Source: a virus. From it: a stretch of 39,891 nt of DNA. The stretch covers positions 1 to 39,891 of IMG/VR virus record IMGVR_UViG_3300018080_000318; one strand, 5' to 3'. How positions within the stretch are numbered: the stretch's first letter is position 1; the number at the start of each line of letters is the position of its first letter. Below, piece by piece: positions 30,863 to 39,416 of this stretch. Both the position numbers and the translations under genes were made by a program. A model generated the notes under the pieces. The model searched no databases. It worked only from the letters and a program-made list of their open reading frames with translations, and was not told the origin of the DNA.

Positions 30863-32695
30863 TTGAAAGATCGTAATAAGACACAATATCAAAACCCGAC
30901 TCACGGCTCGCTTAACTATTTACATGATCCCTCCTGGTTAGACGATCACGCTCCGAAACGTCCTCAAGAGGTTAAGTCGGCCGGTTTCCAGGCTAACCGT
31001 TTCGCAAAGCTCGCCGGATACGATATCGAAAAACGTCAAGCGATAATCCAGAGAGACGAGGAGGAGGATCCGAATATCGGTATAATCGATCCTCTTTATT
31101 TTCGCTGGCGTCTCCATGAATGGAATACATTACCTAACGAGCTCGGAGTACCGGCCGGAGAGGGTATCGAAAATCAACTCGTCAACTTACCGGCCGAGGA
31201 GTACGACTCTCCGGATCCGGACGCTAACGACGATAAAAAGAAAGAGGACGCGGAGGAGGAGCCGACGGGACGAGTCCGTCCCTGGAGTAAATGTTTTCAC
31301 CTGGGAGCGATCGTCGACGGTAAACACTTAATCGGATCCAGGCTAAACCGCTCGAGTCCCTGGACTCGTTACGAGGACTATCGGACCGGTAAATTACATC
31401 AAGCCTTTAGAGTTTCCGAGACGCTCATACCGGAGGGACAATACTCGAAAGACGAGATCGAGGAGTATAGCAACGGTCTAACCGACGCGGCTCGGACTCC
31501 TGGAGTTATATCTCCTGGGACTAGCGTCGGAGGGATCGTATCTCCGGATCCTCCAGGAGAGGACGTAAAGATCGATCAATTTAATCCGGAGGACTGGCCT
31601 AACGATCGGATCCATATCCTCATTAACGATCGTATGAATCAAGAGGGAGGCTATGTCTGGAGCGGAGGTACTCCTCATTTAAACGTCGGAAAACATTACG
31701 ATACTAAATTAAACGTCGTCCCTGGGCTCTTTGCTCAATGGGGAGACGCTTTCGTACTTACTGAGGACGACGTTTATACCAGGACCGGCCGAGACTCCGA
31801 GGCGAGATCTCTCCTCAACTTATGGCACGACGTTCATTTTCACATGAGCGAGGCGAAAGACGGCCGGATATATTTTACGGTTAATCCTCCAGGAGCGGAG
31901 CCTTTCGGAAAACGGATCAAGGGAGAAATGATCGGCGATCCTGGAGTCGCTAATACTAATACTCAATGGGGTCAAGAGTCCGTAAACTGGAGACCTCAAA
32001 TAAAATTACCGATCGAGTACGGTTTACCCTGGACGGATCCAGGACCGGAGCCGATCCCGTTTCCGGACGACTGGCCGGACGGACTTCCTTTACCTGGACC
32101 GATCGGACCTCTCGGACCTGGACCGATCGCCGGACCGATCGGAGTCCCTGGGCCTTATGGTCCCTGGGTTAATGACTGGCCTCACGACGTCGATAAACAA
32201 GTCCAGAGACAAGGGATAATTTTACCTCACCCTGGGACGGACGAGACTATCTGCCCGATGCAATTTTATATCTCGGCTTTTACTCGCGTCCCTCCTGGAG
32301 AGATCGTCGCTCCGGCTAATGCCGTCTTTCGTTATATCGCTCATATTTACCACGACTCCGGATCCGGAGGAGACTATCTCCAGTTTCCTACTTTCGAGAT
32401 CTCCGGACGTTGGGATATTCCGGTAACGGCCGACGAAAATTATATTTTCCATACGGACTGGAGCGGAGCGATCGACGCTCGTCAATTAAAACCTGGAGAC
32501 AATATAATTTATTATTACTGGAGAGATCGGACGGATCCCGACGATACGGCCGATTACTCCGTTTACATTAAAGAGATGTTACCTTTAACCGGACCTCCCG
32601 TCGACGTCGGTTGTTTATGGTCTATATTTTCCGACGACGATACGGTATCATTTAACGGAGCCGAGGTTTATCTCGAGTCGGTCCCTCCGATATGA
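30863..32695 (+). CDS. Tail fibre-like protein with collagen-like segment (TTG start, UGA end)
   Basis: A 610-residue protein from a TTG codon after GAGGGAGG. The middle holds HLGAIVDGKHLIG and IHILINDRMN-type beta strands. Residues about 398-436 are a Gly/Pro-rich collagen-like segment (GPIGPLGPGPIAGPIGVPGP). The C-terminal part is a beta-sandwich-like domain. The gene stops at UGA 32693, but the frame stays open for 29 more codons to TAA 32783, 13 bases before the next ATG. Probably a fibre or tail-tip component. Confidence 0.7.
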   Translation: MKDRNKTQYQNPTHGSLNYLHDPSWLDDHAPKRPQEVKSAGFQANRFAKLAGYDIEKRQAIIQRDEEEDPNIGIIDPLYFRWRLHEWNTLPNELGVPAGEGIENQLVNLPAEEYDSPDPDANDDKKKEDAEEEPTGRVRPWSKCFHLGAIVDGKHLIGSRLNRSSPWTRYEDYRTGKLHQAFRVSETLIPEGQYSKDEIEEYSNGLTDAARTPGVISPGTSVGGIVSPDPPGEDVKIDQFNPEDWPNDRIHILINDRMNQEGGYVWSGGTPHLNVGKHYDTKLNVVPGLFAQWGDAFVLTEDDVYTRTGRDSEARSLLNLWHDVHFHMSEAKDGRIYFTVNPPGAEPFGKRIKGEMIGDPGVANTNTQWGQESVNWRPQIKLPIEYGLPWTDPGPEPIPFPDDWPDGLPLPGPIGPLGPGPIAGPIGVPGPYGPWVNDWPHDVDKQVQRQGIILPHPGTDETICPMQFYISAFTRVPPGEIVAPANAVFRYIAHIYHDSGSGGDYLQFPTFEISGRWDIPVTADENYIFHTDWSGAIDARQLKPGDNIIYYYWRDRTDPDDTADYSVYIKEMLPLTGPPVDVGCLWSIFSDDDTVSFNGAEVYLESVPPI

Positions 32696-32785
32696 TACGA
32701 GGGCTTTTTACCGTCCGTGACTATTGACGGTCAAGATTTCGTACCATGTACTAGCGGCGTATTTGTCGAAAACGGCTTAACATAA
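32693..32785 (+). other. In-frame UGA with open extension and downstream stem-loop
   Basis: TGA 32693-32695 is followed in frame by 29 sense codons (first residues YEGFLPSVTIDGQDF) up to TAA 32783. ACCGTC (32710-32715) and GACGGT (32726-32731) form a 6-bp stem that starts 14 nt after the UGA. The extension would end 13 bases before the next gene, the normal spacing in this phage. Read-through, reassignment or a simple stop are all possible. Confidence 0.4.
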
Positions 32786-32798
32786 GAGGAGCGAGTAA

Positions 32799-34628
32799 AT
32801 GGGTAATCAAGAGACTTTCTGGACTCCCGATCCTGGCGATCGGATATCAATAGAATATTGGGACCGCTCCGCTCGAGAGCTCCTTTCCGGTTGCGTCGTC
32901 GACGGGATCCTCCCTCTCTCGGCGGTCGGACTCGTCCTTACGATCCCGACGGGAAAGTTATACCTCGGCGGCGGTATGTTTACTTTTTCCGGAGGATCCG
33001 TAACTTTACCGGATAACGATACGATCGATCTTTATTTCGTATGGGACCGAGTCCTCGACGATAATCCGGCGAATACCGAGACGTATAATAAAGTAATCAA
33101 TTTTAACGCTCGGTTTAAAATGTACGATAACGGAGTTACTCCCTCGGAGGAGTATTACCTCAAGATCGCGGATCTTACGACGTCCGGAGGAGCGACGGTT
33201 ATATCGACGGTCGACGGGACCGAGCAAACGAAACTCTTAACTCCGAAAGGTCTCGATCTAAACTCTAATAATATCGTCAATATGGCCGATCCCGTAAACG
33301 CTCAAGACGCGGCGACTAAAAATTACGTCGACGGAGCGGCCGGATCGACTAACTTTCTCGCTCTTACCGATACTCCAGGATCTTACTCCTCTCAAAAGAT
33401 CGCTCCAGTAATGGTAAACTATGGAGAGACCGGTCTCGCTTTCTCGATCCCGTTTAATAATGTCCGTTTCGTCGGGAGTAACGGTCACGCGAGCAATACG
33501 ACCGGACGCTTTCCTCATTACGGTTACGCGACGATCTCCGACGCGATAACAAATATAAACGCGGTCGAAACTCCCTCGGAGTCTAATCGTTTCGCGATCG
33601 TCGTCCTGGACGGCGACGAGTATAGCGAGTCTTTTACTTTGCCTCAATGGGTAACGCTTCACGCTCCGAGCGCGGTCATAAATGGGACGGTTACTCTTTC
33701 CGACGACTCGGCCGTTTACGCTCGAGAGATAAAGAAGTCGAGCGGCGGCGACTGTGTATTAAAGTCCTCCGGTACTGGGACGTCCCAGGTTTACGCCGAT
33801 ATAATTCGAGCGACTGGTAACGCTCGAGGAGCTCGTAATACGGCGACGACCGGAGTCCTCATATTGAAAGCTCGTCAATTATACGTCGAAAACGGTTACG
33901 GGATCGGAGATAACGCGAGCGCGGACGGTCATATACATATCGACCTCGAGGATCTTTATATCACTGGGACCGGCGTCGGACTGAGACGTCAAGGATCCGG
34001 ACTTACGATCGGATCTATACATCATATCCTCGAGAGCGGAGCCGGTAACGGAGACGCGATCGAATGTAATACCGGAGAGATCGATATCCGGACTCTCGTA
34101 ATCGACGTCTCTAATAACGCGATCGAAACGGTCGACGCTCTCGCGACGGTCCGGATCGGAGGGATCTCGAAACTCGCCGGAGGAGTTACTCGTTTCGCGG
34201 CGTCGACGATTACCGTCTCTTATATCGACGGGGATCCTCAGAATAATGTTATTTTCGTAAATGGATCTCACGGCTCGGACGATAACGACGGACTTACCAG
34301 GACGAAACCGGTCGCGAGCTTTACTCAAGCTATGGCTCTCGTCGCGGCGACTCCTCCGAGCTCGTCGACTCGCTTTACAGTCGTCGAGGAGTCCGGTCTA
34401 AAATATACCGAGGACTTTACGATCCCGAATTATACGACGGTACTCGCTCAGGGAGCGACGATCGTCGGTAATATTCAAATCGGAGACCTCTCCGCTCTCC
34501 ATTTACGGAGACTCGAGGATACGGCCGGAGATCTCCTTTACCATAACGGGAGCGACTGGAGTTACTTTACGATCGACGAGATCGTCGCGACGTCAACGGC
34601 CGACGGGATCGCGGTCCCTGGCGGCTGA
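32799..34628 (+). CDS. Tail fibre, part before in-frame UGA
   Basis: A 609-residue protein from a GAGGAG ribosome binding site. The N-terminal part is a fibre attachment-like domain ending in NIVNMADPVNAQDAATKNYVDGA, a very common phage fibre motif. Then come beta-helix-like modules starting VRFVGSNG (about 33460) and VIFVNGSHG (about 34248), each with a V-x-x-x-Y-x-E-x-F-x-x-P strand and a turn-rich helix. The second module is cut by UGA 34626 and continues in the same frame. The gene is therefore best read as one fibre of about 1216 codons (32799-36449), with recoding or a nonsense change. Confidence 0.78.
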   Translation: MGNQETFWTPDPGDRISIEYWDRSARELLSGCVVDGILPLSAVGLVLTIPTGKLYLGGGMFTFSGGSVTLPDNDTIDLYFVWDRVLDDNPANTETYNKVINFNARFKMYDNGVTPSEEYYLKIADLTTSGGATVISTVDGTEQTKLLTPKGLDLNSNNIVNMADPVNAQDAATKNYVDGAAGSTNFLALTDTPGSYSSQKIAPVMVNYGETGLAFSIPFNNVRFVGSNGHASNTTGRFPHYGYATISDAITNINAVETPSESNRFAIVVLDGDEYSESFTLPQWVTLHAPSAVINGTVTLSDDSAVYAREIKKSSGGDCVLKSSGTGTSQVYADIIRATGNARGARNTATTGVLILKARQLYVENGYGIGDNASADGHIHIDLEDLYITGTGVGLRRQGSGLTIGSIHHILESGAGNGDAIECNTGEIDIRTLVIDVSNNAIETVDALATVRIGGISKLAGGVTRFAASTITVSYIDGDPQNNVIFVNGSHGSDDNDGLTRTKPVASFTQAMALVAATPPSSSTRFTVVEESGLKYTEDFTIPNYTTVLAQGATIVGNIQIGDLSALHLRRLEDTAGDLLYHNGSDWSYFTIDEIVATSTADGIAVPGG

Positions 34629-34665
34629 CTCTCTGGACGAGTTAACCGGTTGCTGGTAGCAACGG
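34626..34665 (+). other. In-frame UGA in fibre gene with downstream stem-loop
   Basis: TGA 34626-34628 interrupts a frame that otherwise continues to 36449. GTTGCT (34649-34654) and AGCAAC (34658-34663) form a 6-bp stem with a GGT loop, extended by CC/GG across a bulged G (34646-34665). It starts 17 nt after the UGA. The apical loop begins with G about 26 nt after the UGA, a geometry compatible with bacterial SECIS-type or read-through stem-loops; this is not proof. Confidence 0.42.
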
Positions 34666-36449
34666 GAAAAGGCGTCGTAACCTCGGCCGGAGGTTGTATT
34701 ACTTGCGAGATAGAAAGACTCGAGGTCTCAGGAGCCGGAACCGGTTTCGAGGCCGGAGGAGGTACGGTATGTCACCTGGACGCCGGTATACTTAACGCGA
34801 CGTCCGGTACTGGAATCGTCGTAACGTCGACGACGACTCTCTCCGCGATCGTCGGGACTCTTAACGCGACTGGATCGACGGCGTATAACGTCGCGGTCGG
34901 ATCAACGTTAAATATTTTCGTCGCGTCCCTGGCCGGTACGGAGACGAGCTCCGGTACGACTAATATCTCTAAAGCCGGTATCGTACCGGCTCACGGTACT
35001 AACCACGAAAGCGGAGGATCGGACGCGATCAAGCTCGACGATCTCGCGACTCCGGACGATAATACGGATCTCAACGCGAGTACGTCAAAACATGGATTAA
35101 TGCAAAAATACCCAGGAGGGACGACTAACTTTCTCCGAGCGGACGGATCTTTCGCGGCTCCTCCTGGCGGCGGCGGCGGCTGGACTGGGACTCAAGTATT
35201 ATACGTCGGTAAACATGGAAACGACTCAAACGCCGGAACCGATCCGGCGAGTCCGAAACTTACGATCTCCTCCGCGATAACGGCCGCGTCCGGAGCGTCC
35301 TCGAGTAATCCTTACGCGATCGTCGTTATGGACGCCGGTATTTACGCCGAGAATCTCGTTATTACGTCAACGTATGACTGGATCTTTATCGACGCTCGAT
35401 ACGCCGAGCTTAACGGTTATATTCGGCTCGAGGCTAATCATACGCATATCAGACTTAAGCGTCATGAATGTACGACCGGTTACGGGACTCCGACGGCCGC
35501 GATCTATACGACCGGCTCAAGTTACGACGACCGATCGATCGAGGTCCAGGAGGTATACTTAACCTCGGCCGTCCTCCATTACTGGAGAGATATGTCGAGC
35601 GGTAATAACGAAAACGCTAACGTAACTCTCCGAGCCGGTAATATCGAGATCGCGTCCGGTACGTCCGGATCCGTCTTTATGATCGACTCCCAGGGATCCG
35701 CTCATATCGAGGTCGATCGTCTCGATACGACTCGTCCAGTTTACGACTCGGATAATACTTTCCCGAGGAGTACGCTCAAGATAAAGAAGTTAATAACCGG
35801 AGCCGTTACCCTCGGAGCTTATCTTATCGACTGGGCTCACCCTCTCGACGTCGAGATCGGTTACGTCGATCTCGCGTCAAGGTGTTATTTATTCGCTCCG
35901 AGCAAGTCCCAGGAGCTAACCGGTCGAGTCGGTACGATCGAGGGATACTCGTCCTCGTATCCGATGGATATTAACCGCTGGAATTGGCAACTCGAAAATA
36001 TAAAACATCTTGACGTCACTTGTTACGGAGGAGATAACGACTCTCTCGTCACTCTCGGTAATGGTAAATTTTTCGAGTCGATTATTTATAATCAGTATTG
36101 CTATTATCAATTCCATTTACCGACTAACTGTTTAAGGGACTCCTGGGAGTTATACCTCGACGTTATTACCGATACCGGCGATACGACAATGTATATCTCC
36201 TGGAAAGGTAATTGGTCGGCTCACGGAGAGCCGTATAATACTCATAGCGGATCGAGTAACTCGGTCTCTTTCTCTGGAGCTCAGTCCGCTAATGATCGTA
36301 TGGTACTCGAGGAGATCTCGAGTATCTTTACGACGAAACCGCTCCCAGGAGACGCGGTAAATATCGGACTCGGAGTCGGGACCGGCTCCTCCGGTTGCGA
36401 TTATCACTTTGGGACTATGACTTTAAGGTACTGGGAAAACCCGACTTAA
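34629..36449 (+). CDS. Tail fibre, continuation after in-frame UGA
   Basis: 606 codons in the same frame as the preceding fibre part. A separate start would have to be TTG 34650, without a ribosome binding site. The sequence continues the interrupted module (VATGKGVVTSAGGCITCEIE), has a KHGLMQKYPGGTTNFLRADG fibre motif and a poly-Gly spacer, then a third module copy beginning QVLYVGKHGNDSNAG (about 35190). The end is a beta-sandwich-like receptor-binding-type domain (from about 35990). Without decoding of the UGA, the phage would lose the fibre tip. Confidence 0.72.
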   Translation, partial: LSGRVNRLLVATGKGVVTSAGGCITCEIERLEVSGAGTGFEAGGGTVCHLDAGILNATSGTGIVVTSTTTLSAIVGTLNATGSTAYNVAVGSTLNIFVASLAGTETSSGTTNISKAGIVPAHGTNHESGGSDAIKLDDLATPDDNTDLNASTSKHGLMQKYPGGTTNFLRADGSFAAPPGGGGGWTGTQVLYVGKHGNDSNAGTDPASPKLTISSAITAASGASSSNPYAIVVMDAGIYAENLVITSTYDWIFIDARYAELNGYIRLEANHTHIRLKRHECTTGYGTPTAAIYTTGSSYDDRSIEVQEVYLTSAVLHYWRDMSSGNNENANVTLRAGNIEIASGTSGSVFMIDSQGSAHIEVDRLDTTRPVYDSDNTFPRSTLKIKKLITGAVTLGAYLIDWAHPLDVEIGYVDLASRCYLFAPSKSQELTGRVGTIEGYSSSYPMDINRWNWQLENIKHLDVTCYGGDNDSLVTLGNGKFFESIIYNQYCYYQFHLPTNCLRDSWELYLDVITDTGDTTMYISWKGNWSAHGEPYNTHSGSSNSVSFSGAQSANDRMVLEEISSIFTTKPLPGDAVNIGLGVGTGSSGCDYHFGTMTLRYWENPT

Positions 36450-37719: not shown

Positions 37720-38120
37720 TGGAGATAAATTTCGACGGCGAATTACTCAAGGTTATACTAATCGCGATCGCGTATCTAATCGTCCGAGGTCTCTCCTGGT
37801 ACTTTGCTCTCTTTCGTCCAGGAGAAAAACGAGCCGGATACCTGGAGCTCCTCGAGAAAGGTATCGCTCTCGTAAACGAGTATCGGATCCATTACGCGAA
37901 AAAGAATAAAGGCGAGGAGGCTCCGTATCCGAATATCCTCGAGAAAGTAAAAGAGGTATCGGAAAAACTCGGAGTCGTCGCCGAGGATATGGTCGCTCAT
38001 AGACGAAAGATAAAAGACGATCGCCTCGCCTGGGACTCTCTAAACGGAGTCGCGAGTCGGACGTCTAATACGACTATTATTACCGGAGATACTCAAGCGG
38101 AGGGAGACGCGGAGGGATAA
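37719..38120 (+). CDS. Membrane protein, holin-like
   Basis: A 133-residue protein with one N-terminal membrane helix (LKVILIAIAYLIVRGLSWYFALF, residues about 8-30), a basic inner segment (RPGEKRAGYLELLEKGIALV) and a soluble helical end. The plan, one helix followed by a soluble amphipathic helical domain, resembles the LLH-type holins of phages. It is the last late gene and overlaps the preceding stop (TAATG), consistent with a lysis role. Confidence 0.55.
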   Translation: MEINFDGELLKVILIAIAYLIVRGLSWYFALFRPGEKRAGYLELLEKGIALVNEYRIHYAKKNKGEEAPYPNILEKVKEVSEKLGVVAEDMVAHRRKIKDDRLAWDSLNGVASRTSNTTIITGDTQAEGDAEG

Positions 38121-38442: not shown

Positions 38443-38469
38443 ATTATTGGGAAAAAAAGGAGCCACAAA

Positions 38470-38826
38470 ATGCAGAGACTCGAGATTAACCCTTGTAATT
38501 GGGTAACGGAGAAAGTCTTTCTCAAAACTTATGCCGACGAAAAAAAGATCCGGATATCTTACGACGGTAAACACTGGGAGGAGTACCGGATCGAAAAGAG
38601 CTCGATCTCTTACGAGCTCGACGGCGAGAAAGTAACCGACGTATTTTATAAAGCGTATATGGAAAACGAGACCGAGTTTCCGATCGCCGTCGCGACGGAC
38701 TCGATCGACGGCGACGACTCCTCAATATGGGAGGCTTTCCATAACGAGATAAAAGAGGAGAGTCTCTCCAGGAGATCCGGTAATCCTTTCGTCGCTATCG
38801 CTCGCGTAATCTGTAACGTACTCTAA
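38470..38826 (+). CDS. First early gene, hypothetical, 118 aa
   Basis: Not recognised. ATG 38470 follows AAAAAGGAG; the frame is open further upstream but without a ribosome binding site and across the promoter. The sequence is charged and mixed alpha/beta (FLKTYADEKKIRISYDGKHWEEY, ISYELDGEKVTDVFYKAYMENE), with a C-terminal AIARVICNVL. As the first gene of the early unit it could be a host-takeover or regulatory protein. Confidence 0.65.
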   Translation: MQRLEINPCNWVTEKVFLKTYADEKKIRISYDGKHWEEYRIEKSSISYELDGEKVTDVFYKAYMENETEFPIAVATDSIDGDDSSIWEAFHNEIKEESLSRRSGNPFVAIARVICNVL

Positions 38827-39035: not shown

Positions 39036-39416
39036 ATGAAAAAGACTTATCCTCATACGGAATTACACCCGATAAAAAAATGTACCGAATGTAATAAACC
39101 GATCAAGCGGAGACTCGTCGAGCAAAAGACGAAACCGGTCCGACTCTGTTACAAATGCTGGAGAAAGATCGAGAGAGCGAATCGGAGTAACGGCGAATAC
39201 TGTCAAATCTGCGGAGAGGAGATCAAGACTCGCGACGTCCCGATCGAGTCCGAGGCTAATAAAAAGATCGCTCGCTCTTTTCATACGGAGCGAGGTCGTA
39301 AGTATCAAGACGAGTACGGCGAGGGACCGGAGGACTTTTTCGATTACCGCGAGGAGAGGTACTGTCCGACTCACGACGCGGTCGACGATAAAGGTCTCCC
39401 GTTTTCCGAATACTAA
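39036..39416 (+). CDS. Zinc-finger-like protein, 126 aa
   Basis: Starts directly at the previous stop. It has several CxxC pairs: CTECNK (residues 16-19), CYKCWRK (about 38-41), CQICGEE (about 56-59), then a later Cys-His pair in RYCPTHD (near 109-112). The spacing of two CxxC pairs of about 20 residues suggests a zinc ribbon. The basic middle may bind nucleic acid. Candidate early regulator; function not known. Confidence 0.7.
   Translation: MKKTYPHTELHPIKKCTECNKPIKRRLVEQKTKPVRLCYKCWRKIERANRSNGEYCQICGEEIKTRDVPIESEANKKIARSFHTERGRKYQDEYGEGPEDFFDYREERYCPTHDAVDDKGLPFSEY

Follow-up and report, generated by a model that had tools for sequence, protein, structure and literature searches.

The tail-fibre gene of this phage (32799..36449, plus strand) has 1,216 codons and a final TAA with one TGA inside, and we consider this UGA to be probably a recent nonsense change in a fast-changing fibre gene, carried as a population variant, or else an error in the consensus. 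A change from a sense codon to UGA is the simplest of the readings and is consistent with all of the data; the weights that we give to this and to the other readings are judgements and not computed values. The gene lies in a phage record of 39,891 bp, analysed over its whole length (the window), that also holds terminase, portal, Mu-like protease, capsid-E-type capsid and tape-measure genes. It was identified by reading of the frame, by its position downstream of the tape-measure gene and by a match to PHROG 1640 ('tail protein') at residues 156-184 (E 1.6e-7).

The interrupted reading frame

The fibre frame runs from the ATG at 32799 to the TAA at 36447-36449, and the in-frame TGA at 34626..34628 (plus strand), with C as the next base, is its codon 610. 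Read with table 11 the gene covers 32799-34628 and gives 609 aa, while with UGA as sense the frame continues to 36449 and gives 1,216 aa with a single TGA inside. This is the one internal stop in ~12,300 codons of the 41 genes in the whole window. The downstream half of the frame (34629..36446, plus strand) is intact for 606 codons, as judged from coding score, module alignment and TG/CA level. Its coding score between 34719 and 36446 is 0.38 bits/codon in frame compared to −0.42 and −0.56 off frame, and the 30 codons before the UGA also score 0.38 bits/codon; the exception is the 14 codons directly after the UGA, which score −0.36, slightly under the bottom 5% of coding stretches. Since avoidable TG/CA per codon is 0.063 after the UGA versus 0.049 before it, and the codon score is equal, there seems to be little or no decay downstream of the stop. 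A lone stop, an otherwise intact frame and homology on both sides were all found, as in a nonsense-interrupted gene, and the whole 1,216-codon frame is one gene. The original prediction of a UGA inside the fibre gene, followed by an open frame of 606 codons, is confirmed by both the frame and the coding score.

Reassignment of UGA in the host, where it would be a sense codon for Trp or Gly, had been one of the options put forward for this stop. The listed genes end with 37 TAA and 2 TAG, and UGA ends no other except at 32693, as would be expected if UGA were sense; TGA is, however, rare as a stop because TG is avoided genome-wide. In UGA-reassigned codes (tables 4 and 25) UGA is an ordinary sense codon across genes, whereas across the 41 genes here TGG occurs in frame 142 times and TGA only once in the interior, and tRNA genes are absent from the record. 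Reassignment is therefore not supported and appears extremely unlikely.

The C-terminal half could also be made from an internal start, with the two chains assembling into one fibre. Bacteria can re-initiate close after a stop, TTG 34650 opens a 599-aa frame, and other TTG starts occur in this genome. However, duplex energies revealed no usable ribosome-binding site at the starts near the UGA, which bears out the earlier claim that none follows it: TTG 34650 has an energy of −3.0, the same as the random median, compared to a median of −8.0 for annotated starts, and the best ATG, at 35592 (−6.4), is deep inside the C-terminal half. A break at this position would also sit within a solenoid rung, and a split gene is in our judgement very unlikely.

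Position of the stop in the fibre modules

Alignment of the fibre to itself gives three modules on the plus strand: module 1 at residues 221-460 (33459..34178), its paralogue module 2 at residues 485-735 (34251..35003), which holds the TGA, and module 3 at residues 796-1050 (35184..35948). Modules 1 and 2 align with a score of 179 (200 shuffles gave a mean of 42, sd 7 and maximum of 67), modules 1 and 3 with 108 (shuffle maximum 63), and modules 2 and 3 with 82 (maximum 59). The UGA had been described as lying midway in one of three repeated modules, and these shuffle-tested alignments do place it inside module 2. The alignment of modules 1 and 2 is ungapped across residue 610, and the counterpart of the UGA residue in module 1 is Val. 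A residue with a similar GG-x context, Cys 633, is found one 23-aa rung past UGA 610. A single-rung alignment made by hand set the UGA opposite Cys, but it was not significant in single-rung windows and was rejected in favour of the whole-module alignment, which gives Val.

Module 2 was modelled from its single sequence with AlphaFold2, giving a beta-solenoid of moderate confidence (pLDDT 69, pTM 0.68). In the model the beta strands run on through the UGA region, with the UGA residue being the first of a strand. A fold search with the single-sequence model was uninformative: it returned only weak matches, with a best E of 0.89, and many of these were solenoids.

These findings bear on leaky or programmed read-through, where a near-cognate host tRNA would decode the UGA sometimes and the phage would make mostly short and some full-length fibre. 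The frame is intact downstream of the UGA, the sequence there breaks locally from the k-mer bias of the genome, and the stop has a weak UGA-C context with a hairpin after it; UGA followed by C is said to have been found a weak terminator in E. coli by Poole, Brown and Tate in 1995. Against this, the hairpin is near chance level, and the stop falls inside module 2 and not at a domain border, leaving the short product with no natural domain end. Because it cuts the beta-solenoid mid-module, the stop would be a poor site for a programmed short form. For the programmed long and short fibres of the original prediction we found no positive evidence, and read-through of either kind seems unlikely.

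In Qbeta the stop is placed where the coat domain naturally ends, and virions are known to contain the read-through product. Similar to the Qbeta coat/A1 gene, where UGA read-through was discovered (PMC8310308), the fibre gene is a phage structural gene with an in-frame stop followed by an open frame; unlike in Qbeta, the stop lies within a domain, and a read-through product is not known.

Hairpin and word bias after the UGA

A hairpin, GTTGCT-GGT-AGCAAC, is found at 34649..34663 (plus strand), with its 6-bp stem beginning 20 nt and its GGT loop 26 nt past the UGA. A stem-loop with a GGT loop had been expected here and is present, but the distance of 17 nt first given for it fits only if two extra outer pairs are included. 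Several stretches have the hairpin in their minimum-energy fold, though not all do (34629-34690 folds differently); the upper hairpin alone has an energy of −4.8 kcal/mol and the stretch from the UGA to 34666 has −14.7. When folding downstream of the UGA was compared to shuffles, a 62-nt stretch was barely more stable (z −0.69) and a 51-nt stretch was slightly more stable (z −1.32).

The published model for the bacterial SECIS has an energy limit of −7.5 kcal/mol and a small loop with G that lies 16-37 nt away, and the hairpin is within its geometric limits, having a GGU loop, a stem of 6 bp and a spacing of 26 nt (PMC13188914). The hairpin could thus be a bacterial SECIS, with UGA 610 read as selenocysteine in a Sec-decoding host, and the Cys one rung further on is in keeping with this. 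However, hairpins that are as good by the same rule occur at 874 of 13,271 positions (6.6%) when the window is sampled every 3 nt, so the geometry is weak evidence, and the energy of the upper hairpin is small. An Rfam search found neither a SECIS here nor any other credible RNA, the module 1 counterpart is Val and not Cys, and neither a redox motif nor a role for selenocysteine is evident in the fibre. Sec-like decoding had been listed as a weak option; the geometric rules of a SECIS are indeed followed but nothing more selective is, and we regard selenocysteine as highly improbable. Bacterial selenoprotein genes with a bSECIS (PMC13188914) are alike in having a UGA followed, within this spacing of 16-37 nt, by a small loop with G; the fibre differs from them in the lack of a Cys/Sec homologue pair between phages and in a hairpin not above chance, and a Sec function in a fibre is not known.

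Across the whole window (1-39891) the odds of TG and CA are 0.32 and 0.34, and the avoidance is strongest across codon borders (0.17 and 0.22). GTG accounts for 2 of 744 Val codons, in line with the avoidance of TG. When protein and codon usage are kept constant, CATC is present at 0.03 of expectation, GAAC at 0.07, GCTG at 0.08, GCGC at 0.13, and GATG, GAAG and GTAG at 0.11 each, while GATC reaches 2.07. This extreme word bias acts at the DNA level, and candidate causes are restriction avoidance, base modification and mutation bias.

The 40 nt past the UGA at 34626 contain several avoided words and rank among the bottom 0.5% of codon starts and, against other TGA sites only, among the bottom 2%, though these percentages are not formal p-values because the tests were chosen after the site was seen. 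The hairpin is itself built from avoidable TG/CA codons (TTG, CTG, GCA), and clusters of three avoidable TG/CA in four codons occur at 9 places in the window. The k-mer break after the UGA could reflect selection at the nucleotide level. Of the 15 patches in the window that deviate most, several are in the fibre region (31.8-36.0 kb), and because deviant patches are common there, recent exchange or mutation explains this one as well as selection does. It is improbable, in our view, that UGA 610 has been retained for recoding, as selenocysteine or by efficient read-through, with a hairpin kept although it is built from codons that the genome otherwise strongly avoids. If it were, the full length of the phage fibre would depend on host recoding, and the receptor-binding fibre would hang on the UGA-decoding state of the host; a limited literature search found no case of a DNA-phage structural protein dependent on UGA decoding.

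Just one more listed frame ends in TGA, at 32693..32695 (plus strand), in the gene at 30863-32695. Beyond this TGA the frame has a further 29 open codons (32693-32785), to just before the next gene, and a hairpin follows; the 60-80 nt past this TGA are in the lowest 0.1% or less in k-mer fit, unlike all other gaps checked. We considered it as a second recoding site, but the extension has a score of 0.02 bits/codon, which is intermediate between coding and non-coding sequence, a 65-nt fold is the same as shuffles (z 0.01) and a homologue was not found, and for these reasons it was left as an ordinary terminal stop. The most k-mer-deviant patch of 40-60 nt in the window is elsewhere, at 38445-38505, between the genes ending at 38120 and starting at 39036.

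Predicted product and search for relatives

With a nonsense change or consensus error as the preferred reading, the gene would encode one long beta-solenoid tail fibre of ~1,216 residues, in which codon 610 became UGA recently, either in the genome that was sampled or in the consensus assembled from it. The change would be recent because the 606 downstream codons have no second stop and a near normal codon bias, and the clustering of compositional outliers in the fibre region is expected of a fast-changing gene. In a normally terminating host this copy would give only a 609-residue fragment ending mid-solenoid, which is probably not a working long fibre. In a host-range mutant of phage 812 that arose spontaneously, a premature stop created by a deletion splits the tail-fibre gene into two ORFs (PMC6445280). 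As in that mutant, Staphylococcus phage 812K1/420, the fibre gene here is in two open frames through a premature stop, but the stop in 812K1/420 was made by a 77-bp deletion, whereas the fibre gene here has a single in-frame UGA and keeps its frame.

Fibre relatives were not found in INPHARED (DNA and protein, E up to 5), PLSDB, IMG/VR or GTDB, with both fibre halves, the UGA region, the portal, the capsid, the terminase and two tail genes used as IMG/VR queries. Close relatives of the rest of the phage were not found in the same IMG/VR and GTDB scans, and the capsid has at most ~34% identity to the best match seen; such pattern scans detect close relatives only and may omit near-identical records, and absence here is not absence in nature. 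We infer the recency of the change, the loss of function and the origin, be it a real variant or a sequence error; the databases searched returned no relative that has a sense codon at this site. If the UGA is ordinary, it calls for caution, as only reads or relatives can distinguish a lone stop in an orphan metagenomic fibre gene from a variant or an error.

A linker motif of the fibre, GTNHESGGSDAIKLDDLA..., at 34989-35180 of the window, is present with 68-88% identity in three IMG/VR contigs (L002 3764-3979, L003 8001-8153 and L004 8001-8162). Apart from the motif, these contigs match neither the fibre nor its neighbours, and the motif is probably a mobile module of fibre proteins.
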